Positions 8,152 to 21,271 are shown, numbered from the stretch's first letter. The stretch is 61,952 nucleotides of DNA from Cyclobacteriaceae bacterium (GCA_026989505.1 JALSJF010000148.1:1-61952), one strand, 5' to 3'. Notes: generated by a model from the sequence alone, not told the origin. Translations and numbers: made by a program.

Positions 8152-9111
8152 ATGGCAAATGTATTGTGGCTTCAAGGAGGCGCATGTAGTGGAAATACTA
8201 TGTCTTTCTTGAATGCAGAAGAACCAACCGTTGTTGAACTCATCACAGACTTCGGGTTAAACATTCTCTGGCACCCTACTACCGGGTTGCAAATTGGCGA
8301 CCAGGTACAGGACCTTTTAAATGACATAATAGCCGGCAAAGAGCAAATGGACATCCTGGTTTTCGAAGGCTCTATCATCCAGGGCCCTGACGGCTCCGGC
8401 TCCATGAATTATTTCGCAGACCGGCCAATGATGGACTGGGTCAGGGACCTCTCAAAAGTAGCGGGCTATGTGGTTGCTATTGGCGATTGTGCCACCTGGG
8501 GTGGCATTCCGGCCGTACCCCCAAACCCCAGCCAGTCAACCGGAATGCAGTTCCTCAAAACCGGCAAAGGGGGCTTTCTGGGAGCCGACTATGTATCTAA
8601 AGGCGGCTTACCGGTAATTAACATTCCCGGCTGCCCGGCCCACCCCGATTGGGTAACACAAATTTTAGTGGCTATCTCAATTGGCCGGATTGGCGATATT
8701 TTGCTGGACGACTACCAGCGGCCCAAAACTTTCTTTACCGAGTTCACCCAGGATGGTTGTACCAACATTACCAATTTTGCCCAAAAAGTAGATGGCAACT
8801 TTGGCCTGCGGGGCGGGTGCTTATTTTATGAAGTAGGCTGCCGTGGCCCGCTTACACGTTCGAGTTGTAACCGTATTTTATGGAACAGGCAGTCAAGTAA
8901 AACACGGGTCAACCACCCTTGCCTGGGCTGTACCGAACCGGGCTTCCCACATCATGACCTGAAAAAAGGTAGCGTATTTAATACCATGAAGTACCTGGGC
9001 ATCCTGCCCAAGGAAGTGCCGGAAGGCAGGACCAAACTGGCTTACTATCTCGAAGCCGGTTTCCAAAAAGTTATGCCTAAGAACAAGCGCATAATGGAAA
9101 CCTCTATCTAA
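8152..9111 (+). CDS. hupS: Group 2a [NiFe]-hydrogenase small subunit
   Basis: A 319-residue electron-transfer subunit that begins directly with the flavodoxin-like domain (MANVLWLQGGACSGNTMSF). It lacks the Tat signal and the C-terminal anchor of group 1 enzymes, so it is cytoplasmic. This is the cyanobacterial HupS / mycobacterial HucS type. FeS ligands are as follows. Proximal: Cys12, Cys113, Cys161; the position of the usual second Cys is Asn15 (CSGN instead of CTGC). Medial: Cys239, Cys257, Cys260. Distal: Cys203, Cys223, Cys230; the usual His is Gln200. Losing one ligand at both proximal and distal sites predicts [3Fe-4S] clusters throughout, as reported for Huc. It pairs with hupL 32 bases downstream. 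Confidence 0.95.
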   Translation: MANVLWLQGGACSGNTMSFLNAEEPTVVELITDFGLNILWHPTTGLQIGDQVQDLLNDIIAGKEQMDILVFEGSIIQGPDGSGSMNYFADRPMMDWVRDLSKVAGYVVAIGDCATWGGIPAVPPNPSQSTGMQFLKTGKGGFLGADYVSKGGLPVINIPGCPAHPDWVTQILVAISIGRIGDILLDDYQRPKTFFTEFTQDGCTNITNFAQKVDGNFGLRGGCLFYEVGCRGPLTRSSCNRILWNRQSSKTRVNHPCLGCTEPGFPHHDLKKGSVFNTMKYLGILPKEVPEGRTKLAYYLEAGFQKVMPKNKRIMETSI

Positions 9112-9143: not shown

Positions 9144-10739
9144 ATGTCAACAGTAAAAGAATTAAATATATCTCCGGTAGGGCGGGTAGAAGGCGACCTG
9201 GATGTAAAAGTATATATTGATAACGGCAAAGTAACCCGGGCCCACACCCAGGCAGCCATGTTCAGGGGCTTTGAGCAGATCATGGGTGGCAAAGACCCCC
9301 AGTCAGGCTTGATTGTTACCCCCAGGATTTGCGGCATTTGCGGAGGCTCGCACTTGTATTGCGCCTCCTCAGCCCTGGATACAGCCTGGGGCACACAACT
9401 GCCCCCCAACGCTTTGCTGCTCAGGGCAATTGGCCAGGCTACCGAAACTATTCAAAGTATCCCACGCTGGTTTTACGCTATCTTCGCCACTGACCTGGCC
9501 AATAAAAAATTTGCCAACAAGCCCTTATATAGTGAGGTGGTAAAACGCTGGTCGGCTTATGTGGGCACAACGTTTCAAAAAGGATTGACAGCCAGTGGTT
9601 TGCCGGTGCAGGTATATGCCCTCTTTGGCGGCCAATGGCCGCATTCCAGTTATATGGTGCCCGGTGGGGTGATGTGCGCCCCTACCCTGAAAGATATTAC
9701 CCGGGCGCATGCCATTATGACCCAATTTAAAAATGATTGGCTGGAGCCTGTCTGGCTGGGCTGCTCCATTGAGCGCTACCTGGAAATCAAAACCTGGGAC
9801 GATATGCTGGCCTGGGTAGAAGAAAATGACACCCAGCGCAACAGCGACCTGGGACTTTATATCCGGGCAGGCTTAGAATTCGGCCTCGATAAATTTGGCC
9901 AGGGGGTAGGCAAGTTTTTGGCTATGGGTACTTACCTGCACAAAGACATGTACAATAACCCTACTATTGAAGGCCGTAACGATGCCCTGATCGGCTCCAG
10001 TGGTTTCTTTGACGGGGAAAATTACCATGCATTTGACCACCTGAAGGTGAGCGAACATGTAAAACATTCCTGGTATAACAACCAGGAAGATGGCTTGCAC
10101 CCCTGGGAAGAGCCTTTGCCCACTCCGGCCAAATCGCAAACATTAGAGGATTCTGACTTTGACGGTCAATACAGTTGGGCCAAGGCCCCTCGCTATGACG
10201 GCCACGCCTGCGAGGCCGGACCGCTGGCCAGGGTAATCATGAATGCCAACCCCAACAACAAAGACCATCAGATAAAAGACCCGTTGTTTGGTGATATTAT
10301 CAAAAAAATGGGGCCGAGCGTATTTACCCGGGTGCTGGCCCGCGTGCATGAAGCGCCCAGGTTATATACCATGATTGACAAATGGCTCTCCGAAATTGAC
10401 CTGAATGGCGATTTCTACATTAAGCCTGTTGAAAAGGACGGCAAAGGGTTTGGTGCCACCGAAGCCGCCCGTGGTGCCCTGGCCCACTGGGTGGAGATTG
10501 AAAACGGGGTAATCAAAAACTACCAGGTAATGGCCCCTACTACCTGGAACGTAGGCCCAAACGATGCCGAAGGCAACCCGGGGCCGATAGAAAGCGCCCT
10601 CACCGGCATTGAGGTAGAAGACCCGGCCGACCCGGTTGAAGTAGGCATTGTGGCCCGCTCATTCGATTCATGTCTGGTATGTACGGTACATGCCCATGAC
10701 GAGAAAAGTGGTATTGAACTTTCTAAATTCAAACTGTAA
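9144..10739 (+). CDS. hupL: Group 2a [NiFe]-hydrogenase large subunit (catalytic), precursor
   Basis: A 531-residue subunit holding the NiFe(CN)2CO site that splits H2. The L1 motif is RICGICGGSH at 61-70, with metal ligands Cys63 and Cys66. The L2 motif DSCLVCTVH is at 508-516, with ligands Cys510 and Cys513. The N-terminal SPVGRVEGD places the conserved Glu at 16. After His516 a 15-residue tail follows, to be cut off by the endopeptidase encoded next. Ser509 in place of the common Pro (DPC) is usual in group 2a. The best match is to cyanobacterial HupL and mycobacterial HucL, which oxidise H2 for respiration. It is cotranscribed with hupS and followed by a strong hairpin terminator. Confidence 0.96.
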   Translation: MSTVKELNISPVGRVEGDLDVKVYIDNGKVTRAHTQAAMFRGFEQIMGGKDPQSGLIVTPRICGICGGSHLYCASSALDTAWGTQLPPNALLLRAIGQATETIQSIPRWFYAIFATDLANKKFANKPLYSEVVKRWSAYVGTTFQKGLTASGLPVQVYALFGGQWPHSSYMVPGGVMCAPTLKDITRAHAIMTQFKNDWLEPVWLGCSIERYLEIKTWDDMLAWVEENDTQRNSDLGLYIRAGLEFGLDKFGQGVGKFLAMGTYLHKDMYNNPTIEGRNDALIGSSGFFDGENYHAFDHLKVSEHVKHSWYNNQEDGLHPWEEPLPTPAKSQTLEDSDFDGQYSWAKAPRYDGHACEAGPLARVIMNANPNNKDHQIKDPLFGDIIKKMGPSVFTRVLARVHEAPRLYTMIDKWLSEIDLNGDFYIKPVEKDGKGFGATEAARGALAHWVEIENGVIKNYQVMAPTTWNVGPNDAEGNPGPIESALTGIEVEDPADPVEVGIVARSFDSCLVCTVHAHDEKSGIELSKFKL

Positions 10740-10812: not shown

Positions 10813-11292
10813 ATGAAATTAGCAATAATGGGATTCGGTAACCCGGTACGCAGCGATGATGCCATTGGTGTATATGTGGTAGAACAACTCAAAAAGGCCG
10901 TGGGCAACACCGAGGCCATTAGCCTCTTTGATATGGGAACAGCTGCTTTTGAAACCCTGTTTGGGTTAAAAGGCCATCAAAAAATTATTCTGGTAGACGC
11001 CATTATCAACAGCAGCGAACCGGTAGGCACACTTTTTAAGGTGCCGGCTGAAGAAATCCTACGTGCCCCGGAAGACGACCCGTTGGTGTTTCTCCATGGC
11101 ATGAAGTGGGACCAGGCCTTGTCGTATGCCAAAAAAATCCTGCAGGATGACTATCCTGAAGATATTGAAGTATATTTAATTGCTATTGAAAACACCAGGC
11201 TCGATGTTGGCCTCAGCAAGGAAGTACAAAAGGCCGGGGATAACGTGGTGAACCTTATTGTAAAGGAGTTGCAATTATTGGAAATGATATAG
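10813..11292 (+). CDS. hupW: Hydrogenase maturation endopeptidase for HupL
   Basis: A 159-residue HybD/HycI-family protease that removes the C-terminal tail of the large subunit after nickel insertion. The N-terminal motif GFGNPVRSDDAIG (about 7-19) holds the nickel-sensing acidic residues Asp15/Asp16. The FDMGTAAFETLFGL and ILVDAI segments follow, as in the family, and the HGMKWDQALSY region supplies the histidine equivalent. The symbol follows the cyanobacterial partner of HupSL; hupD would be the name in other systems. Its stop is one base from the next start, opening a run of coupled genes. Confidence 0.9.
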   Translation: MKLAIMGFGNPVRSDDAIGVYVVEQLKKAVGNTEAISLFDMGTAAFETLFGLKGHQKIILVDAIINSSEPVGTLFKVPAEEILRAPEDDPLVFLHGMKWDQALSYAKKILQDDYPEDIEVYLIAIENTRLDVGLSKEVQKAGDNVVNLIVKELQLLEMI

Positions 11293-11293
11293 T

Positions 11294-11611
11294 ATGGCAG
11301 GTGTTGCATTAAGTTCCTCGCATATTTACCTCGACAGTGCGCTGGTAGAGGAGTTCTTCCGTCAGGAAACCTATGCCTTGGTGGCTTACGATAAAAAACA
11401 ACAGCGGCTATTGATTTCCCCGGCCAGCAACCAGTGGTTTGCCAAAATGCACAAGCCCATGCAGTTCTTGCTAAAAACCCGCAATGTAAAAGGGGATAAA
11501 ACCTTGGGTATCCGGGAAATCCTGCTTGATAATGATATTGATCCGGCAGACCGGCCGTTGACTGTGGAGATAGTTAAACGAACCGGCCTTTTAAAAGTGA
11601 ACTTATTATGA
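11294..11611 (+). CDS. Unknown 105-residue protein of the hydrogenase cluster
   Basis: I do not recognise this family. The product is 105 residues, soluble, with no signal peptide, cysteine or metal-binding motif. Predicted elements alternate strands and helices: YALVAYDKKQQRLLISPAS looks like a beta hairpin, and the C-terminus (RPLTVEIVKRTGLLKVNLL) ends in a strand. It starts one base after the endopeptidase gene and overlaps the next gene by 4 bases (ATGA). Its place between the maturation protease and hypA indicates a hydrogenase-specific role such as assembly, scaffold or accessory subunit. That role is inference from context alone. Confidence 0.75.
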   Translation: MAGVALSSSHIYLDSALVEEFFRQETYALVAYDKKQQRLLISPASNQWFAKMHKPMQFLLKTRNVKGDKTLGIREILLDNDIDPADRPLTVEIVKRTGLLKVNLL

Positions 11612-11874
11612 ACAGCCGCAATAAACCTGAAGATGCCTGGTTACTTGATGCTGAAGTAAAGTACAGGATAGAGGAGGCTCACGGACGCTGGCAGGTCTCA
11701 CTTATATTTATTGATACCCATGACCCAACCCATTTTTTGGTTAAACAAATCGGGGATTACCGGACAGAAAAATTAGCGAAAATTTACGCCCGCAATATGC
11801 AACAAACAGCCGCCAAAGATTTTAGGGGAACACAAAAAGTCAATCCAGATGATTATCCTGCAAACAACAACTGA
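11608..11874 (+). CDS. Unknown 88-residue protein of the hydrogenase cluster
   Basis: An unrecognised 88-residue hydrophilic protein with no signal, membrane segment or cysteine. It appears to be a small alpha/beta domain: two strands (KYRIEEAHGRWQVSLIFID), then a helix with basic and aromatic residues (TEKLAKIYARNMQQTAAKD), and a disordered polar tail. It overlaps the 105-residue gene by 4 bases and the TPR gene by 26 bases, so the three are translated together. It could be an adaptor between hydrogenase and the TPR or membrane protein, but nothing in the sequence proves a function. Confidence 0.7.
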   Translation: MNSRNKPEDAWLLDAEVKYRIEEAHGRWQVSLIFIDTHDPTHFLVKQIGDYRTEKLAKIYARNMQQTAAKDFRGTQKVNPDDYPANNN

Positions 11875-13336
11875 ATATCGGCAACAAACAGAGGAGATAA
11901 TCGCTGGGGTTGACCGCCTTGCAGAGTTGGTAACCATAACTACTACCGGAAGCAGCAAAGCAAACGGGCAGACAAAACTCTTGTACGTTAACAAGGTAAT
12001 AAAACCAGCTATCGATTGGCATGACACTTTGCCCCCCTACCTGTTTCCGCCCCTGCCGCTAAACAGCGCTAATTTGCTCGCCCTCGTTTTTTATTTTTTG
12101 GGCAACCATCAAAAAGCCTTCGCCTACACAAAAGAAGCTGATGAATTGTATAATCACCTGCTTATCGCCACTAATTTACATTTCAATTATACCCTCAGCG
12201 CAGAACAGCTTACCTTTCTTGGCCATACCTCCGGTCACAACCTGGCAATTGCCCATCACTATGGCCAGGTGGCCTGCCCCATAGGGCAGCAAGAGCTGGC
12301 CAGCACCTATGAAGCCGCTATAAAAAATGCTGGCAATCTACAGGAGCAATTGTTTACGGTTAAACATTACGCCACCTTTTTAATTGATAGCGGCCACTTT
12401 GAGAAAGCCGAAAAACTGTTGCATTCCATGACCAAAAAAACGGGTTCTGAAGCAGAAACCCATGCCTTGAACCACTTGCTGGCGGCCAGTATGATGGCCC
12501 GGGTTACCCTACCTTTCGATAAAGCCAGGCTGGCGGCAATCAGGAAACTGCAATTGGGCTGCATTGCCTATTATGAAACACTGAGCCTACAATTGAATGC
12601 CGGCTTATTATTACTTGAGGTTGCTGAAATAGCCGGCTTTGCAGAAGACTTTATAGCTGCAAAAAAACATATCGAAAAGGCCATTCAATATTTTACTGCC
12701 GAGGACACCCCGGAACTTCTGGGCGAAGCCCTGATACGTAAAGCTACCTTGTTATACAACTGGTCCAAAAACGGCAGCCCGCAATACTATAAACCGGCTA
12801 TCAACACCTTTCAAAATGCGTTAAAGGTTTTCAAAAAAGACACCCATCCACAACATTTTGCCGATATTCACCACCGCCTGGCGCTAATCTACTCAGAAAT
12901 CCCCGTAGCTGAAGATGAGCGACCACTTTGGGCTGCTTTTTGCGCTTCGTCCTTTAAAGAAGCCCTGGCCGTTTACACACGCGAGAGCTTCCCGTATGAA
13001 TACGCCATGGTATGCCATAACTACGCCACTGCCCTGATGGGATTTCCGGAAGGCAAACTACATAATAACCTCGACAAAGCTTTCAACCTGTTTGAGGAAG
13101 CCCTGACCGTACGCTCTGCCGCCCGCTATCCACTTGAGCGCACGTTAACCTTATTAAACCAACTTGAACTCTATTGGCTGCTGCACAATGAAGACCAGGC
13201 AGCCGAAACCAAAACCCTGGCCGTAATGCAGGCAAAGGCAGAAGAAATCAAACAACTGGCTACAGATAAAAAATTGTTAAAGAAAGCGGCCGAACACTTA
13301 CATCGGCTTGCCGAATTAGAACAACTTATTGGCTAA
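11849..13336 (+). CDS. Tetratricopeptide-repeat protein of the hydrogenase cluster
   Basis: A 495-residue, all-helical protein without a signal peptide. Repeated helix pairs such as NHQKAFAYTKEADELYNHLL (about 90-109), GHFEKAEKLLHSMTKK, AINTFQNALKVFKKDTHPQ and HNNLDKAFNLFEEALTVRSAA are TPR-like. The conserved A-F/Y/L-A-L pattern is strong in the second half, which ends in a charged helix. TPR arrays bind other proteins, so this may hold hydrogenase subunits or tether them to the membrane protein encoded two genes on. A TPR gene also accompanies group 2a hydrogenases in mycobacteria, as I recall. The start overlaps the preceding gene by 26 bases; no better start was seen. Confidence 0.8.
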   Translation: MIILQTTTEYRQQTEEIIAGVDRLAELVTITTTGSSKANGQTKLLYVNKVIKPAIDWHDTLPPYLFPPLPLNSANLLALVFYFLGNHQKAFAYTKEADELYNHLLIATNLHFNYTLSAEQLTFLGHTSGHNLAIAHHYGQVACPIGQQELASTYEAAIKNAGNLQEQLFTVKHYATFLIDSGHFEKAEKLLHSMTKKTGSEAETHALNHLLAASMMARVTLPFDKARLAAIRKLQLGCIAYYETLSLQLNAGLLLLEVAEIAGFAEDFIAAKKHIEKAIQYFTAEDTPELLGEALIRKATLLYNWSKNGSPQYYKPAINTFQNALKVFKKDTHPQHFADIHHRLALIYSEIPVAEDERPLWAAFCASSFKEALAVYTRESFPYEYAMVCHNYATALMGFPEGKLHNNLDKAFNLFEEALTVRSAARYPLERTLTLLNQLELYWLLHNEDQAAETKTLAVMQAKAEEIKQLATDKKLLKKAAEHLHRLAELEQLIG

Positions 13337-13338
13337 TT

Positions 13339-13686
13339 ATGCACGAATTATCCATTGTAAACAGTATTATGAACACCCTGGAACAAGAGTTCGATGAGGC
13401 TAAGCTGGATAAACTGCAAGCCATTTACCTGAAAGTGGGTATCTTAGCCAATATTGAGCCGCGGTTGCTGCATAATGCCTTTACGGCCAAACATCATTGT
13501 GGCACCAGGTTCCATCATGTGCAATTGCATATCGAGCCTACGGATATAAAGATTCAGTGTGCTAGCTGCAACCATATCACCACGGTAAAAAACTACCGGT
13601 TTGCTTGTGAAAAATGTGGTCGACCAAGCAAAAACCTTATTCAGGGTGAAGAAATGCTTATTCATAAAGTGGAGTTTGAAGACTAG
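13339..13686 (+). CDS. hypA: Hydrogenase nickel-insertion protein HypA
   Basis: A 115-residue nickel chaperone. The nickel site is the N-terminal MHELSI, with His2 and Glu3. The zinc site has two CxxC pairs at Cys74/Cys77 and Cys90/Cys93 (IQCASCNH and FACEKCG). It works with HypB to deliver Ni to the HupL precursor. It starts 2 bases after the TPR gene stop, and the next gene begins directly at its own stop. Length and motifs are complete. Confidence 0.95.
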   Translation: MHELSIVNSIMNTLEQEFDEAKLDKLQAIYLKVGILANIEPRLLHNAFTAKHHCGTRFHHVQLHIEPTDIKIQCASCNHITTVKNYRFACEKCGRPSKNLIQGEEMLIHKVEFED

Positions 13687-14556
13687 TTGCCCGTGTTAAA
13701 AAAGATACTATCATATACAAATACCTTTTATGAGGCGCTCAAAGCTTATTGGGAAAACAAGCAAAGCCTACGCCTGATCAGCACTTTTTTAGTTACCATT
13801 TTTATTGTTAGCACGGCTTTAAGCTTCCTGGTAATACAGGGTTACCTCAGCCTGGGAATTTATAATCAATATTTTCAAAACCCTTTTTTCTCCATCGAGG
13901 TTGTGTTTACTGTTTTGCTGATTACCGAATTATTTGGGCTGATATTTATTCTTCCCAGGTCGGTAGCCAAATCGGTTGGCAAGCAATTTGAACTGCTGTC
14001 GCTTATTTTTTTACGTGACGGCTTTAAAGAATTCAGCCACATCCATAATGATTTTTCCCTTGAATCCTTAAAAGCCCCGCTAACGAACATGGTGGTTTAC
14101 GGCTTTGGTGCTGTTGCCATATTTACCCTCCTCGGATTTGTTTACAAACTGCAGCAACACATTAAACTGGCCGCCAGCGAAGATAGCCAGGATCAGTTTA
14201 TAAAATTTAAAAAGCTATTGGCCTTATTTTTACTGGTAGCCTTTGTTTGGGTTGGCTATATGGACATAAAAACCTTACTTATAAGCGGCACCTACCTGCA
14301 CTCTTTCAAAACTTTTTACACTATTCTTATTTTTAGCGATATCCTGATTGTGTTGATAGCGTTAAGGTACACCGTTAATTATTACAAAATATTCCGGTAC
14401 TCGGCTTTTGTTTTAGGCACTATACTGATTAGAATAGCCCTTTCGGTGCAACCTTATTACGATGTAGTAATTGGTGTTGTGGCCACTGTTTTCATCCTAA
14501 TCCTTACCCTGGTTTATAATTACTTCTTAAAAGAATTTCCTGACAAAATGAAATAG
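13687..14556 (+). CDS. Seven-helix membrane protein embedded in the hyp genes (unknown)
   Basis: An unrecognised 289-residue membrane protein lying between hypA and hypB. Hydrophobic helices are visible at about 30-52, 70-89, 133-153, 177-193, 210-227, 238-254 and 260-280. A long cytoplasmic-looking loop at 90-130 includes an amphipathic helix (KQFELLSLIFLRDGFKEF). No heme-binding His pair, quinone motif or transporter signature was recognised. The frame opens with TTG at 13687 directly after the hypA stop; a GTG at 13693 is an equally good start. Position suggests a hydrogenase membrane partner, replacing the cytochrome b or stalk used elsewhere, but this is inference. Confidence 0.8.
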   Translation: MPVLKKILSYTNTFYEALKAYWENKQSLRLISTFLVTIFIVSTALSFLVIQGYLSLGIYNQYFQNPFFSIEVVFTVLLITELFGLIFILPRSVAKSVGKQFELLSLIFLRDGFKEFSHIHNDFSLESLKAPLTNMVVYGFGAVAIFTLLGFVYKLQQHIKLAASEDSQDQFIKFKKLLALFLLVAFVWVGYMDIKTLLISGTYLHSFKTFYTILIFSDILIVLIALRYTVNYYKIFRYSAFVLGTILIRIALSVQPYYDVVIGVVATVFILILTLVYNYFLKEFPDKMK

Positions 14557-14561
14557 CAAAG

Positions 14562-15260
14562 ATGAGCGTAGAAAAATCAACCCAAACCGCCCGCGGCACA
14601 GCCCAATGCGAGAATACCAATATCAACCTGCTTAAAGCCAACGATTTTGTGGCCAACATAATCCGCGATAAAATGACCGAGACCAACACCCTGCTGATAA
14701 ACATAACTTCTTCGGCCGGCAGCGGCAAAACTACCCTGATGCAAAAAACGGCTACCCGTCTGAAAAACAAACTGCGAATGGCCGTGATGGTGGGTGACCT
14801 GGAAACAGAACGCGATGCCGACCGCATACGGGAAAGCGGCATCCAGGCCCTGCAAATTGTTACCGGGGGTATCTGCCACCTCGAGGCACAAATGGTGCAT
14901 CAGGTATTGCCCGAGTACAAGCTCGATGAAATTGATTTGCTCTTTATCGAAAACGTAGGCAACCTGGTATGTCCGGCCTCGTTTGATTTGGGTGAAGACT
15001 ACCGGGTTACCCTGATGGCAACCACCGAAGGGGATGACAAGCCCAAGAAGTACCCACGAATGTTTTTAACTTCTGATGTTATGCTTATTTCGAAAGCAGA
15101 TTTACTCCCCTATCTGCCGTTTTCGGTTGATGCTGTTACGAAAGATGCCCGCGATATCAACCATGAGCTTGAAGTAATGGTGGTGTCTGCCTTAAAAGAA
15201 GAGGGGCTCGATGCCTGGTGCGATTGGCTGGTTGATAAAGTACAACAAAAGCAAGCCTGA
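14562..15260 (+). CDS. hypB: Hydrogenase nickel-incorporation GTPase HypB
   Basis: A 232-residue SIMIBI-class GTPase that powers nickel transfer to the large subunit. The Walker A motif is SSAGSGKTT (50-58), and GDLETERDADRIR follows as switch region. The intersubunit metal site is kept: Cys105-His106 in GGICHLEA and Cys137 in NLVCPAS. The N-terminus lacks both the high-affinity CxxCGC motif and the His-rich nickel store found in some HypB proteins, so this is the short form. It follows the membrane protein by 5 bases. Confidence 0.95.
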   Translation: MSVEKSTQTARGTAQCENTNINLLKANDFVANIIRDKMTETNTLLINITSSAGSGKTTLMQKTATRLKNKLRMAVMVGDLETERDADRIRESGIQALQIVTGGICHLEAQMVHQVLPEYKLDEIDLLFIENVGNLVCPASFDLGEDYRVTLMATTEGDDKPKKYPRMFLTSDVMLISKADLLPYLPFSVDAVTKDARDINHELEVMVVSALKEEGLDAWCDWLVDKVQQKQA

Positions 15261-15315
15261 TGAATTGCCATAAATTTTATGTATTGGCAGATTTAACCGT
15301 TAAATTAGTAATATA

Positions 15316-15588
15316 ATGTGTTTAGCTATTCCCGGAAAGATTGAAAGTATTGAAACCCGTTATAATGGGGCTGTGCGCATTGCCAAAGTGTTATTTGGCA
15401 GCATCAGCAAAGAAGCCAGCCTCGAAATGCTGCCCGAAGCGGAAATTGGCGACTATGTTTTAGTGCATGTAGGGGTAGCCATTAGCAAAGTAGATGAAGC
15501 AGAAGCCCAGAAAACATTTAAATATTTGGCCGAAATTGGCGAACTGGGGGATTTAACCGATGTGGATGAGTATCTTCCTGAAGAATAA
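15316..15588 (+). CDS. hypC: Hydrogenase assembly chaperone HypC
   Basis: A 90-residue chaperone that binds Fe(CN)2CO with HypD and carries it to the HupL precursor. The N-terminus MCLAIPGKI includes the essential Cys2, exposed after removal of Met1. The DYVLVHVGVAISKVDEAEA block is the conserved HypC core. It is followed by an acidic C-terminal helix. The 55-base gap after hypB is the largest within the maturation genes; hypD begins 6 bases later. Confidence 0.95.
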   Translation: MCLAIPGKIESIETRYNGAVRIAKVLFGSISKEASLEMLPEAEIGDYVLVHVGVAISKVDEAEAQKTFKYLAEIGELGDLTDVDEYLPEE

Positions 15589-15594
15589 AAACAC

Positions 15595-16689
15595 ATGAAA
15601 TACCTCTCCGAATACCGTGACCCGGAACTGGCCCGGCAATACCTGGCCGAAATAAAAAAAACGGTTACCCGGCCGTGGTCGATTATGGAGGTGTGTGGCG
15701 GCCAGACCCACAGCCTGGTAAAAAATGGCATTATTGCTATGCTGCCGCAAGAGATTACCATGATCCACGGCCCGGGATGCCCGGTATGTGTAACCCCCCT
15801 CCACCTGATTGACAAAGCTGTGCACCTGGCCCTTGAAAAAGGGGTTGTCTTGTGCTCATTTGGCGATATGCTGCGGGTACCGGGCTCAGAAAAAAGCCTC
15901 CTCGAAGCCAAGGCAGCCGGTGCCGATGTGCGTATTTTGTATTCCCCCCTGGAAGCCGTAAACATTGCGGCCGAAAACCCTGACAAAGAAGTAGTGTTCT
16001 TTGCCGTAGGTTTTGAAACCACCGCCCCGGCCAATGCCCTGTCGGTTGTAGATGCCGCCCGCAGAGGGCTGAAAAACTACAGTATCCTGGCCTCGCATGT
16101 GCTGGTGCCCCCGGCTATCGAGGCGATTATGGAAGATGTGGACAGCCATATTGACGGCTTCCTGGCTGCCGGCCACGTCTGTACGATCATGGGCACTTTT
16201 GAGTACTACCCGCTGGTAGAACGCTTTAAGGTACCTATTGTGGTTACCGGCTTTGAACCCCTCGATATTTTACAGGGGATTTTAATGGTCGTCAGGCAGC
16301 TCGAGCAGGGCCGGGCCGAAGTGGAAAACCAATATGCCCGCATTGTGCGCGAAGAAGGGAACCCCGAGGCCCAGAAAACCATTTATGAGGTTTTTGAGGT
16401 TACCGACCGCCTCTGGCGGGGCATGGAAATCATCCCCATGAGCGGTTACCGGGTAAAAGACAAGTATGCCGCCTATGACGCTACGCAAAAATTTCGTATC
16501 AATCTGGTTGAGGCCGAAGAAAACCCGGCTTGTCTGGCCGGGGAAATTATGAAAGGGATAAAAAAACCTTTCGAGTGCCCCGAATTTGGCAAAACCTGCA
16601 AGCCCACCAACCCCCTGGGTGCGCCTATGGTAAGCAGCGAAGGGGCTTGTGCCGCCTATTTCCATTATTCCGGGCTGGTAGAAGGCTAA
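15595..16689 (+). CDS. hypD: Hydrogenase Fe-cofactor assembly protein HypD
   Basis: A 364-residue FeS protein on which the Fe(CN)2CO unit is built with HypC. Conserved cysteines are visible: Cys34 in [10 protein letters not shown], and Cys62 and Cys65 in [11 protein letters not shown]. The redox-active pair and [4Fe-4S] ligands lie in the C-terminal segment ([22 protein letters not shown] and EGACAAYF). The [10 protein letters not shown] block is also typical. Length is normal, and hypX begins 4 bases after the stop. Confidence 0.96.
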
Positions 16690-16693
16690 CCCG

Positions 16694-18415
16694 ATGAAAA
16701 TCCAGTTCCTCACCAATACGTTCAACGGTATGGCCCAGCGCCTGTGGCTCGAACTCGACCGGCTGAACCATGAGGTAAAAGTACAAACCGGCACCTCCCC
16801 GGCAGCCATGATCAGTGCCGTAGAAACCTACCGCCCCGACCTTATCATTGCCCCCTACCTTACGGCCAGGATACCAGCCGCTATCTGGCAGCACTACACC
16901 TGCCTGGTGGTACACCCGGGCGTTGCCGGTGACCGGGGGGCATCGTCACTCGACTGGGCGATCCTTGAAGAAGCAGCAACCTGGGGGACAAGTATTATTC
17001 AGGCCACCGAAAAAATGGATGCCGGCCCGCTTTGGGCCTCCTTCGAGTTTCCCCTGCGGCCGGTGAGCAAAGCCCAACTCTACCGCCATGAAGTTACCCA
17101 GGCAGCCGTTAAGGGGGTGTTGTCGGCCCTGAAAAAATGGGCAGCAGGTGAACCGCCCCTACCCGCCCCGGCCGGTAAATGGCGTAGGAAAACAAACCAG
17201 GAGGACGTTAAATTCAACTGGCAAGAACCCGCCACTGCCATCCTGAAAAAAATCCGCGCAGCCGATAGTAGCCCCGGGGTATTGGTGCAGCTTTTTAATC
17301 AAGATTATTATGCTTATGGCGCCCATAAGGAAGAAAAACTCAAAGGCCGCCCCGGGCAGGTAATGGCACAACGGCAGCAAGCCATATGCGTAGCCACAGG
17401 CGATGCGGCCCTTTGGCTTACCCACCTGAAACCTGCTACGGAAGGCGGCATTAAATTGCCGGCTACGCTGGCGCTGGGGGATGCCGCCACCCCCCTCCCG
17501 GAGAAGGGGCTCAGCCCATTTGCAAACCCCGGTTATGCCACCTGGCAGGAAATCCGCTTTGCGCAGGAGGGGGCTATCGGCTATTTGCATTTCAACTTTT
17601 ACAACGGGGCCATGAGTACCCGCCAATGTCAGCGGTTACGGGAAACTTTTGCCGAAGCCAAGAAGCGGGTGAAACTAATTGTCCTGATGGGCGGTCACGA
17701 CTTATGGTCAAACGGTATCCACCTGAATGTAATTGAAGCTGCCCGGGACCCGGCCGCAACCTCATGGGAAAACATCAATGCCCTGAACGACTTGATCCTG
17801 GAAATTATTGAAGCTACCGGCCACTACATTATCAGCGCCCTGCACGGCAATGCCGGGGCCGGAGGGGTAGCCCTGGCCCTGGCGGCCGACAAGGTGCTGG
17901 CCCGTGAAGGCATTGTTCTTAACCCCCACACAAAAAATATGGGGCTTTACGGCTCCGAATATTGGACCTACCTGTTACCGAAACGGATTGGCATTGACAA
18001 GGCCACCAAATTTACCGAAGAGTGCCTTCCCTGGGGGGTAGCCGTAGCCAAAGAAATTGGCCTGATAGATGATTACCACGGAGAAACAACCCACGATTTT
18101 ACCGCCTTTATCCGGCAACAGGCGCAGGCCATCATAAAATTACCTTATTTTGACAAGCTGCTGCAAGCCAAGCGGTTTCTGCGCAGAAAAGATGAGATGA
18201 ATAAGCCGCTAGCCGATTACCGTGCAGAAGAACTGGCTAAAATGAAGAAAAACTTTTACGATAACGATAAACATTACCATGAAAAACGTTTCAACTTTGT
18301 GCATAAGGTAGCCCCTGAACAGGCACACAGTATGGCCGGCCTCTATGCAAGCCGCAGGGCAATCTACCGGAAACGCAAATGGGAACCGATCAATTACAAA
18401 GACCAAACCCGATGA
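16694..18415 (+). CDS. hypX: HypX/HoxX, enzyme supplying the CO ligand under aerobic conditions
   Basis: A 573-residue two-domain enzyme. The N-terminal half resembles N10-formyl-THF-dependent transferases (VVHPGVAGDRGASSLDWAI, about 75-93, then MDAGPLWASFEF). The C-terminal half (about 290-500) is a crotonase fold with the oxyanion-hole region ISALHGNAGAGGVALALAAD. HypX transfers formate carbon to CoA and decarbonylates formyl-CoA to CO for the NiFe site, a route found in aerobic H2 oxidisers. Its presence suggests that hydrogenase is made in air. The stop overlaps hypE by 4 bases (ATGA). Confidence 0.94.
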   Translation: MKIQFLTNTFNGMAQRLWLELDRLNHEVKVQTGTSPAAMISAVETYRPDLIIAPYLTARIPAAIWQHYTCLVVHPGVAGDRGASSLDWAILEEAATWGTSIIQATEKMDAGPLWASFEFPLRPVSKAQLYRHEVTQAAVKGVLSALKKWAAGEPPLPAPAGKWRRKTNQEDVKFNWQEPATAILKKIRAADSSPGVLVQLFNQDYYAYGAHKEEKLKGRPGQVMAQRQQAICVATGDAALWLTHLKPATEGGIKLPATLALGDAATPLPEKGLSPFANPGYATWQEIRFAQEGAIGYLHFNFYNGAMSTRQCQRLRETFAEAKKRVKLIVLMGGHDLWSNGIHLNVIEAARDPAATSWENINALNDLILEIIEATGHYIISALHGNAGAGGVALALAADKVLAREGIVLNPHTKNMGLYGSEYWTYLLPKRIGIDKATKFTEECLPWGVAVAKEIGLIDDYHGETTHDFTAFIRQQAQAIIKLPYFDKLLQAKRFLRRKDEMNKPLADYRAEELAKMKKNFYDNDKHYHEKRFNFVHKVAPEQAHSMAGLYASRRAIYRKRKWEPINYKDQTR

Positions 18416-19470
18416 GCAATAAAACAAGCAAAATGCAATTGCAGTGCCCCATGCCAAAGCTGGATTTTGATGTTATTACCCTGGGCCACGGCAGTGGCGG
18501 GGTGTTAACCAACAAACTATTAGACAGCGGGGTGTTCGACCTGCTGAAAAACCCCGTCCTCGATGAACGGCATGACGGGGCCACCCTGAACTTAAACGGC
18601 CGCATGGCTTTTTCTACGGATAGTTTTTTGGTGTCGCCCCTATTTTTCCCCGGAGGGAATATTGGTGAACTGGCGGTAAACGGCACCGTAAACGACCTGG
18701 CCATGTGCGGGGCTACGCCCAGGTACTTATCCCTCAGCTTTATTATTGAAGAAGGGCTGCCCATGACGGAATTTTGGGATATCCTGGTGTCGATTAAAAA
18801 TGCCTGTACGCGAGCCGGGGTTACCGTAGTGACCGGAGATACCAAGGTAGTAGAAAAAGGCAAAGGCGATAAAATTTTTATCAACACCTCCGGCATCGGT
18901 GAAATCCACCCCAAGGCGAATATCAGCACCCGGAATATCAAGGCCGGGGATAAAATCATTATCAGTGGCCAGGTGGCTGCCCACGGTATGGCCATCATGT
19001 CGGTGCGCGAAGGCCTGGAGTTTGAGGCGCAAATAGAAAGCGATACCACTAACCTCAACCCTACGGTGATCGGCCTTATCGCAGAATTTGGTGAACACCT
19101 GCACCTCGTTACCGACCCCACCCGCGGGGGGGTGGCCACCGTGCTGAAAGAAATTGCCCTGGCGGCTGGAGTAGGCATAGAAATAGCCCACAACAACATT
19201 CCCGTAGCCGGGCCGGTGGCCAATGCCTGTGAACTGTTGGGGTTAGACCCCCTATATGTAGCCAACGAAGGGGTGTTTATCAGTTTTGTGGCGGCCGCTT
19301 TTGCCGAAGACTATCTGGCCGCCCTGCAACAAACGCCAGACGGACAACATGCCCGTATTATGGGCGAAGCCGTAAACGACCATCCCGGGCAGGTTATCCT
19401 GGAAAGTGCCATTGGCGGCAAACGGGCCATCGGTATGCTGCCGGGGGAACAGTTGCCCAGGATATGTTAA
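18412..19470 (+). CDS. hypE: Hydrogenase expression/formation protein HypE
   Basis: A 352-residue PurM/ThiL-like ATP-binding protein that dehydrates a carbamoyl group on its C-terminal Cys to cyanide. The N-terminal ITLGHGSGG and ATP-site segments (FSTDSFLVSPLFFPGG, GNIGELAVNGTVNDLAMCGA) are present. The protein ends PRIC, with the required terminal Cys. I start at ATG 18412, which overlaps the hypX stop; a longer in-frame start at 18379 lies inside hypX. HypF, which loads the carbamoyl group, is not encoded in this window. Confidence 0.95.
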   Translation: MSNKTSKMQLQCPMPKLDFDVITLGHGSGGVLTNKLLDSGVFDLLKNPVLDERHDGATLNLNGRMAFSTDSFLVSPLFFPGGNIGELAVNGTVNDLAMCGATPRYLSLSFIIEEGLPMTEFWDILVSIKNACTRAGVTVVTGDTKVVEKGKGDKIFINTSGIGEIHPKANISTRNIKAGDKIIISGQVAAHGMAIMSVREGLEFEAQIESDTTNLNPTVIGLIAEFGEHLHLVTDPTRGGVATVLKEIALAAGVGIEIAHNNIPVAGPVANACELLGLDPLYVANEGVFISFVAAAFAEDYLAALQQTPDGQHARIMGEAVNDHPGQVILESAIGGKRAIGMLPGEQLPRIC

Positions 19471-19480
19471 GCCTGGTTAA

Positions 19481-20578
19481 ATGATGGCACTTTCCACTTT
19501 AGGCAATCAAGTTGATCAGGCAAGGATATTCAAAGGGGCCCGGGAAAAGCCTTTCTTAGCCCCAAGAGGGGTGTTTGTGACCAAAAACATACTTTTTGTG
19601 GCCGATACAGGGCAAAACCGGGTGTTTATTTGGCCCGAAATGCCGGCTACCGAATATGCCGAACCCACGGTTATCCTGGGGCAGCATGCCGTGGCAGATT
19701 TTGGCCGCAATGCCGATGGGGTAGTTACCGCCAGTTCCCTGCAGTACCCATCAGGGCTATGGAGCGATGGCCATAAACTAATTGTGGCGGATGCCTGGAA
19801 CCACCGGGTGTTAATCTGGCATACCCTGCCCACCACCAACGCCCAGCCAGCCGATGTGGTTATCGGCCAGCCCGGGTTTACCACCAACCAACCCAATGTG
19901 CAGGGTATTGGGGCCGCCCCCACAGCGCAAACATTAAACTGGCCTTATGGCGTTTTTTCCGATGGGCAGCACTTGTGGATTGCCGATACCGGTAACCGCA
20001 GGATTTTGTTTTACCACACAATCCCAACAGCCAATTATGTTGCAGCCGACAAGGTGATTGGTAAACCCGGTTTTACCTCCCGCGATTATGCCAACCACGA
20101 ACCCCTCTGGCCTTATTCAGTCAAAGTCAATGCCCGGGGGGCAATGGCCGTGGCCGACACCCAGTTTTACCGGACGCTGCTGTGGCATGATTACCGCCAG
20201 GCGTTTAATAACCCCGCAGAAGTTATCATCGGACAACCTGATTTTGACAGTTGCGGGCAAAACCAGTACCGGCTTGCCCCCGAAGCCAATACCCTTAACT
20301 GGACCTACGATGCCTGCTTCTACAAAAAGGGCTTGCTTATTAACGATACCGGCAACAGCCGGATACTCGTATTTAAAGACACGCCCCGGCACAACAACGC
20401 CCCGGCCGATGCCTTGATTGGCCGGCCGGATTTTAACACCGGCAGCGAATACCAGGAAACCATGATGGGCACAGATAAAGCCCTTTACTGGCCTTTCTCC
20501 ATCATCACCTATAAAAACCAACTGGTTATAGCCGACACCGGCAACCACCGCCTGGTTATTTGCCGCTTAAAAGCTTAG
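19481..20578 (+). CDS. NHL-repeat six-bladed beta-propeller protein of the hydrogenase cluster
   Basis: A 365-residue soluble protein without a signal peptide. Six copies of an ADTGNxR-type motif start at about residues 41, 103, 168, 225, 288 and 351, spaced near 62 residues, so it should fold as a six-bladed propeller. Between blades a second motif of the form VIGQPxF recurs (about 65, 128, 193, 249 and 312). NHL propellers bind proteins or small ligands; no catalytic residues are evident. NHL genes also lie near group 2a hydrogenases in other phyla, as I recall. It follows hypE by 10 bases and its last 12 bases overlap the converging transporter gene. Confidence 0.88.
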   Translation: MMALSTLGNQVDQARIFKGAREKPFLAPRGVFVTKNILFVADTGQNRVFIWPEMPATEYAEPTVILGQHAVADFGRNADGVVTASSLQYPSGLWSDGHKLIVADAWNHRVLIWHTLPTTNAQPADVVIGQPGFTTNQPNVQGIGAAPTAQTLNWPYGVFSDGQHLWIADTGNRRILFYHTIPTANYVAADKVIGKPGFTSRDYANHEPLWPYSVKVNARGAMAVADTQFYRTLLWHDYRQAFNNPAEVIIGQPDFDSCGQNQYRLAPEANTLNWTYDACFYKKGLLINDTGNSRILVFKDTPRHNNAPADALIGRPDFNTGSEYQETMMGTDKALYWPFSIITYKNQLVIADTGNHRLVICRLKA

Positions 20579-21271
20579 GTAAAGCCAATAAAAGCCAATT
20601 ACAACCGCAAACAAGCCCCCCGCCAGACGGATGCCATTAAGAAACAGGGTATTGTGCTCCTGCCGGGTGTGGGTAACAATCCGGTCTAACACCAGGGCAT
20701 AGGACGTCATGGCCAGCACCGTGCCAATGGCAAAGCCGCTGATATACTCCACGGTCTCGAGGCGGGTTTGAAAGCTGAGAGCCGGCAGCAGCAGCAAGAA
20801 ATGGGCTATACCCGCCAGGCCGTGAACCAGGCCAATACCGAAAGAGGAGAACAGGTTTTGCTTTATCGCTTGCGGATGGGTATGTTCATGCGCATGGGAA
20901 TGATCATGTTCGTGCTTGTGAATGTGGATATAGGGTTGGCCATCGGTATGGATATGCGGATGGCTATGCGTTTTCTGGCCGTAGAAAATACGGTAAAACG
21001 ACCACACCCCGACCCCGATAAGGATCACACCTACACTTTGCTCACTATAGGCCGAGATTATATCTACCGGGATTAATTCCTTAAAGAAAAGCAGCAAAAC
21101 GCCTATAAGCAACATGCCGGCCAAATGCCCCAGGCCCCAGGTCAGGCCTATTTTCCAGGCTTTGCGTTTGGTTTCGATGACCAACGGGGTAACGGCCGCC
21201 AAATGGTCGGGGCCGGAGATTACATGCAGCATAGAGGCCAGGATGCCGGCCAGAAGCAAAAAATTATCCAT
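20567..21271 (-). CDS. NicO/UreH-family nickel-type transporter with His-rich loop
   Basis: A 234-residue membrane protein with about six helices. The first helix carries HVISGPDHLAAVTP (His16, Asp22, His23), resembling the HxxxxDH metal motif of NiCoT/UreH/RcnA proteins. A cytoplasmic or periplasmic loop at 102-132 has 13 histidines, mostly alternating, a likely metal store. A second SFGIGLVHGLAGIAHFLLLLPAL block is typical of the UreH group. Convergence with the hydrogenase operon (12-base overlap) fits nickel supply to HupL, although RcnA-like export or cobalt cannot be excluded. Confidence 0.8.
   Translation of the reverse strand: MDNFLLLAGILASMLHVISGPDHLAAVTPLVIETKRKAWKIGLTWGLGHLAGMLLIGVLLLFFKELIPVDIISAYSEQSVGVILIGVGVWSFYRIFYGQKTHSHPHIHTDGQPYIHIHKHEHDHSHAHEHTHPQAIKQNLFSSFGIGLVHGLAGIAHFLLLLPALSFQTRLETVEYISGFAIGTVLAMTSYALVLDRIVTHTRQEHNTLFLNGIRLAGGLFAVVIGFYWLYLSF

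Follow-up and report, generated by a model that had tools for sequence, protein, structure and literature searches.

A conserved block of putative maturation and assembly genes behind the HucL endopeptidase in a group 2a [NiFe]-hydrogenase operon of Cyclobacteriaceae

The stretch of DNA analyzed here (the window; 61,952 nucleotides from a Cyclobacteriaceae bacterium) carries a hydrogenase operon on the + strand in the order hucS-hucL-endopeptidase-A105-B88-TPR-hypA-TM7-hypB-hypC-hypD-hypX-hypE-NHL. The genes for the group 2a [NiFe]-hydrogenase small subunit (hucS, 8152..9111) and large subunit (hucL, 9144..10739) were assigned by phmmer against the PDB and by identity to other HucL proteins, respectively, and are followed by the gene for the HycI/HupW-like C-terminal endopeptidase of HucL (10813..11292; Pfam HycI, 2.7e-14). 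Behind it lie A105 (11294..11611), encoding a soluble, huc-specific protein of 105 amino acids with a predicted two-repeat beta-beta-alpha-beta-beta barrel; B88 (11608..11874), encoding a small, soluble, and likewise huc-specific protein of 88 amino acids, predicted to be alpha-beta-beta-beta-alpha; and the gene for a Huc-associated TPR protein (11849..13336). The nickel metallochaperone gene hypA (13339..13686; Pfam HypA, 1.9e-25) and TM7 (13687..14556), which encodes a 7-helix membrane protein that is not hydrogenase-specific, precede hypB (14562..15260; homologue in the corresponding position in 66 huc loci), hypC (15316..15588; Pfam HupF_HypC, 1.5e-24), and hypD (15595..16689; homologue in 67 huc loci). 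The run is completed by hypX, with formyltransferase and enoyl-CoA hydratase domains (16694..18415; Pfam Formyl_trans_C, 7.5e-14, and ECH_1, 7.1e-16), hypE (18379..19470; TIGR02124, 420 bits, above cut-off), and a gene for an NHL-repeat protein, a conserved group 2a accessory gene (19481..20578; Pfam NHL, 3.9e-15).

The endopeptidase and A105 genes are separated by one base, A105 and B88 overlap by four bases, and B88 and TPR overlap by 26. The ORF calls thus agree with the original prediction on where A105, B88, TPR, and TM7 lie and how they are joined, and the overlaps recur in relatives, where the median spacing in the huc locus survey is -1 for endopeptidase/A105 and -26 for B88/TPR. The gene hypF, usually found between hypB and hypC, is absent from that position in the window (15260-15316) and was found on another contig of the assembly (G000:C248); a genome of the same family (G492) has kept a 2.3 kb gap between hypB and hypC. 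Beside the NHL gene, on the - strand (20567-21271), is a gene for a membrane protein with a His-rich loop that resembles a nickel/cobalt transporter and has a weak DsbD_2 match only. No repeats were found flanking the operon, and a scan for promoters and terminators gave a result no better than shuffled sequence.

Group 2a hydrogenases enable bacteria to live on trace H2. The best PDB matches of HucS in the phmmer search are the Huc small subunits 7uur/7utd, at 450 bits, with the next best match at 119 bits. HucL is 72-94% identical to the proteins of Bacteroidota loci, 62% to that of Nocardioides, 60% to those of mycobacterial and 56% to those of Thermus group 2a loci. By homology, the locus is a group 2a (Huc-type) [NiFe]-hydrogenase operon. 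The identities within Bacteroidota bear on its origin: HucL is 94% identical to that of a Flavobacteriia MAG and 89% to that of Zobellia, compared with 80% to that of Runella, which belongs to the same order, while the glutamate dehydrogenase encoded on the same contig is 76-80% identical to the proteins of the family and order and 44% to that of Zobellia. The contig as a whole is native to the order, but a same-family genome also has the operon, with 88-89% identity. A past transfer of the huc operon from flavobacteria is thus no more than a possibility.

As the original prediction held, A105, B88, and TM7 cannot be assigned to any Pfam or NCBIfam family, and all matches of the TPR protein fall below the cut-off. 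Neither A105 nor B88 has a membrane helix or a conserved Cys. The AF2 model of A105 (pLDDT 95.5) has two beta-beta-alpha-beta-beta repeats, and that of B88 (pLDDT 76) is alpha-beta-beta-beta-alpha. Foldseek searches with both models returned nothing below E 0.001; for A105, the top matches include the DNA-binding barrels of MraZ and plant B3 proteins, with weak E values of 0.2-0.4. Searches of PDB sequences with A105, B88, and TM7 profiles gave no convincing relative.

To follow the distribution of these genes, 80 huc loci were gathered via HucL from 84,980 species genomes and searched with profiles grown from the genes of the window; the counts per 73 refer to those loci in which 3.2 kb or more of sequence follows hucL. 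A105, TPR, and the endopeptidase are each present in 71/73 loci, and B88 is present in 65/73, counting either a copy in the operon or a longer copy upstream of hucS. Two loci (L104 and L112) have hucSL and no accessory block in the stretch covered. In a reverse test, 396 Bacteroidota genomes, 5 of which have group 2a HucL, were searched for A105, B88, and TM7. B88 was found in exactly those 5 genomes, and the strong matches of A105 are confined to the same 5; elsewhere, three A105 fragment matches were obtained (E 8e-4 to 9e-3). TPR proteins are too common for a search of this kind, and the linkage of the TPR gene to huc rests on its presence in huc loci.

Outside Bacteroidota, we examined plasmid-borne group 2a loci of Mycobacterium, Thermus, Sphingopyxis, Sulfobacillus, Mesorhizobium, and Octadecabacter. 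Homologues of TPR, NHL, and the endopeptidase are present in all six; those of TPR occupy the corresponding position in Mycobacterium, Thermus, Sulfobacillus, and the alphaproteobacteria (E 1e-35 to 1e-43), and those of NHL have E values of 1e-80 to 1e-105. The NHL gene, which the original prediction had missed, thus belongs by homology to the same conserved accessory set. The form of A105 differs between lineages. In alphaproteobacteria, it has a gene of its own, and in Thermus, its reading frame is unannotated. In actinobacteria (M. intracellulare, Nocardioides), it makes up the C-terminal part of the endopeptidase, and in Sulfobacillus, it shares a two-domain protein with B88, A105 being the N-terminal half. 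B88 is also present in the huc loci of Mycobacterium and Nocardioides and was not detected in those of Thermus or the alphaproteobacteria. The A105 copies outside Bacteroidota have modest single-sequence profile scores (E 4e-7 to 0.02); in hhalign comparisons of non-Bacteroidota with Bacteroidota profiles, A105 reached 97.1% and B88 98.1%, against 0.1% for crossed controls. No further huc genomes were found among 79 genomes searched in the order of Nocardioides.

The sequence data support the view that A105, B88, and TPR belong together as a conserved block that follows the HucL endopeptidase gene and is tied to group 2a hydrogenase. The original prediction had joined these three genes and TM7 in one module; the first three hold together, and TM7 falls outside, being widespread without huc, so the module of four was rejected. 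Co-occurrence with group 2a HucL in Bacteroidota divides in the same way, with A105 and B88 confined to the 5/5 genomes and TM7 found mostly in others. Several variants of the locus were seen in the survey. Many Bacteroidota loci carry a longer B88 paralogue and TetR regulators upstream of hucS; two tandem hucS genes are present in many Saprospiraceae-type loci (L083, L088, L089, L094, L095, L102, L107, L117, L119); and in L110 and L113, hucSL itself is in tandem, the first copy being followed by endopeptidase, A105, and TPR and the second by hypA.

TM7 has the seven hydrophobic segments that had been predicted. Its homologues begin at a codon aligned with GTG 13693, which is therefore the likelier start. 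In the reverse test, TM7 is present in 97/396 Bacteroidota genomes, that is, in 1/5 of those with group 2a HucL and in 96/391 of those without, a distribution that is not hydrogenase-specific and that, by the original prediction's own test, speaks against its place in the module. In huc loci, it is found between hypA and hypB in 6/60 (about 10%), as well as in G492, and is absent from 54/60. Its neighbors vary between genomes. TM7 is best described, from its occurrence, as a separate and widespread membrane protein; in a subset of huc operons, it recurs as an accessory or a passenger and does not define them.

In that subset, TM7 might have a genuine role of its own in nickel or ligand supply, a reading that we consider rather unlikely, though the least so of the alternatives discussed here. 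It occupies the same position between hypA and hypB in Flavobacteriaceae, Saprospiraceae, and the family of the window; it goes together with hypX (4/5 TM7 loci vs 2/41 others, p 4e-4 with kinship ignored); and in one genome (G198), it adjoins urease accessory genes, recognized by eye. However, most of the dozen contexts examined have no nickel enzyme nearby, and no metal-binding motif is evident in the TM7 alignment. A part for TM7 in nickel supply is put forward as a guess.

How HucSL would pass electrons to the quinone pool is a separate matter. The window has no known electron-exit subunit, as had been noted: neither HucM nor a Rieske domain nor a hydrogenase cytochrome b is encoded there. 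DUF1641/HucM (PF07849) is absent from the whole assembly, while the search found it in the Nocardioides control, and a search with Nocardioides HucM gave no match in the Bacteroidota huc loci examined. No Rieske domain of the hucE type is present on the contig of the window, the Rieske domains of the assembly being on contigs C193 and C201, and the assembly's single hydrogenase cytochrome b lies next to a second hydrogenase, on contig C271. TM7 has no Pfam match, and so no Ni_hydr_CYTB (HupC) domain, and no conserved heme His. Electron transfer in this clade cannot be accounted for by the known quinone stalk, HucM being absent from the huc loci examined in Bacteroidota. HucM is also missing beside hucS in three alphaproteobacterial loci, which have other small proteins there; HucM is therefore a feature of only part of group 2a. 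Among these alphaproteobacteria, Sphingopyxis alaskensis has been reported to oxidize atmospheric H2 (PMC10305171).

The alphaproteobacterial loci have small genes of their own. Directly after hucL (L159:10686-11395, L161:10687-11363, L162:10665-11376) are two related small proteins that share the motif CX2CX9CX14C. They have no Pfam match and are reminiscent of a small iron-sulfur protein, which makes them candidate electron carriers. Moreover, two small hydrophobic proteins of ~70 aa each are encoded between TPR and NifU (L159:13286-13731, L161:13311-13759, L162:13289-13714), and this pair, which resembles the two-helix asr0689/asr0690 proteins of Nostoc, is a candidate membrane anchor in these loci.

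With HucM absent from the Bacteroidota loci, and given their co-occurrence with hucL, A105, B88, and TPR could be structural subunits that organize the HucSL oligomer and replace HucM or add to it. This is improbable: mycobacterial loci have homologues of these genes, yet Huc purified from M. smegmatis consists only of HucS, HucL, and HucM (PMC10017518), and its fusion to the endopeptidase points to A105 as a transient partner.

The original prediction went further and saw in the four proteins a docking and electron-exit complex that brings HucSL to the membrane. The genes are co-operonic, and without HucM in the Bacteroidota huc loci examined, or a Rieske protein or cytochrome b in the window, an exit route is needed. 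The evidence nevertheless argues against such a complex. In Mycobacterium, Nocardioides, Thermus, and Sulfobacillus, homologues of A105 and TPR occur where HucM/DUF1641 is present, A105 and B88 lack a conserved Cys, and TM7, with no invariant His, is mostly found without huc and is missing from the great majority of huc loci. Since both A105 and B88 occur beside HucM, they were rejected as its substitutes. We thus regard the exit complex as very unlikely, and there is equally little to recommend the broader suggestion that Bacteroidota Huc reaches quinone by an undescribed route with A105, B88, and TPR as docking subunits and, in some loci, TM7 as their partner in the membrane. It is just as doubtful that A105, and possibly B88, regulates the operon as a MraZ/AbrB-like nucleic-acid-binding barrel: the two repeats in the AF2 model and the MraZ and B3 matches would suit a regulator and offer a weak lead, but no Foldseek match falls below E 0.2, the fusion to the endopeptidase fits poorly, and two TetR regulators are already encoded upstream of hucS in loci such as L074 and L163.

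We favor the reading that A105, B88, and TPR are probably maturation and assembly factors dedicated to the group 2a (Huc) hydrogenase. Several lines of evidence argue for it: the block is co-located with hucL directly behind the endopeptidase, has homologues in other phyla, and includes two genes, A105 and B88, that in Bacteroidota are confined to huc genomes; A105 is fused to the endopeptidase in some lineages and to B88 in another; A105 and B88 have neither a membrane helix nor a conserved Cys, and HucM is encoded in loci with these genes in Mycobacterium, Thermus, and Sulfobacillus; and both the composition of purified M. smegmatis Huc and the proposal made for the extended hyp-operon of Nostoc (see below) are consistent with it. 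The fusion of A105 to the endopeptidase establishes linkage, not mechanism. In the mechanism that we propose, A105 and B88 would jointly act as an adaptor through which the endopeptidase reaches nickel-loaded pre-HucL, and TPR would serve as a scaffold that keeps HucL until HucS docks. The action of all three would be transient, with no part in electron transport. Should A105 and B88 prove to be dedicated endopeptidase partners, they would constitute a pair of new hydrogenase maturation factors and possibly components that are missing when Huc is produced in foreign hosts.

Accessory genes between the structural and hyp genes are familiar from other hydrogenases. In group 1 hydrogenases, HupGHIJ/HoxO-HoxQ are so placed and are thought to act in maturation (cited in PMC2408588); A105 and B88, however, match no Pfam or NCBIfam model of these proteins. 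Closer to the window are the huc loci of Mycobacterium, Nocardioides, Thermus, and Sulfobacillus, which have homologous HucSL, endopeptidase, A105, TPR, and NHL in the same order but additionally encode DUF1641/HucM and a protein of the NifU family, which in Mycobacterium is NifU-Rieske. The huc operons 2-4 of Parageobacillus thermoglucosidasius resemble the window in gene order, with endopeptidase-hypothetical-TPR-hypothetical-NifU-NHL beside hucSL, and differ from it in carrying DUF1641 and NifU (PMC12976888). In Nostoc PCC 7120, the extended hyp-operon (asr0689-alr0693) likewise belongs to a group 2a uptake hydrogenase, with unassigned small ORFs and TPR and NHL genes between the structural and hyp genes (PMC2408588, PMC3126725); a NifU-like gene sets it apart from the window. 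According to that work, the small Nostoc ORFs encode two-helix membrane proteins, a description that does not fit A105 and B88. We therefore do not equate these with asr0689/asr0690, whose products bear more likeness to the small h5/h6 proteins found in alphaproteobacteria. The Nostoc genes between hupSL and hyp are co-transcribed with hyp, and a role in maturation has been proposed for them (PMC2408588, PMC3126725), as we propose here for A105, B88, and TPR.
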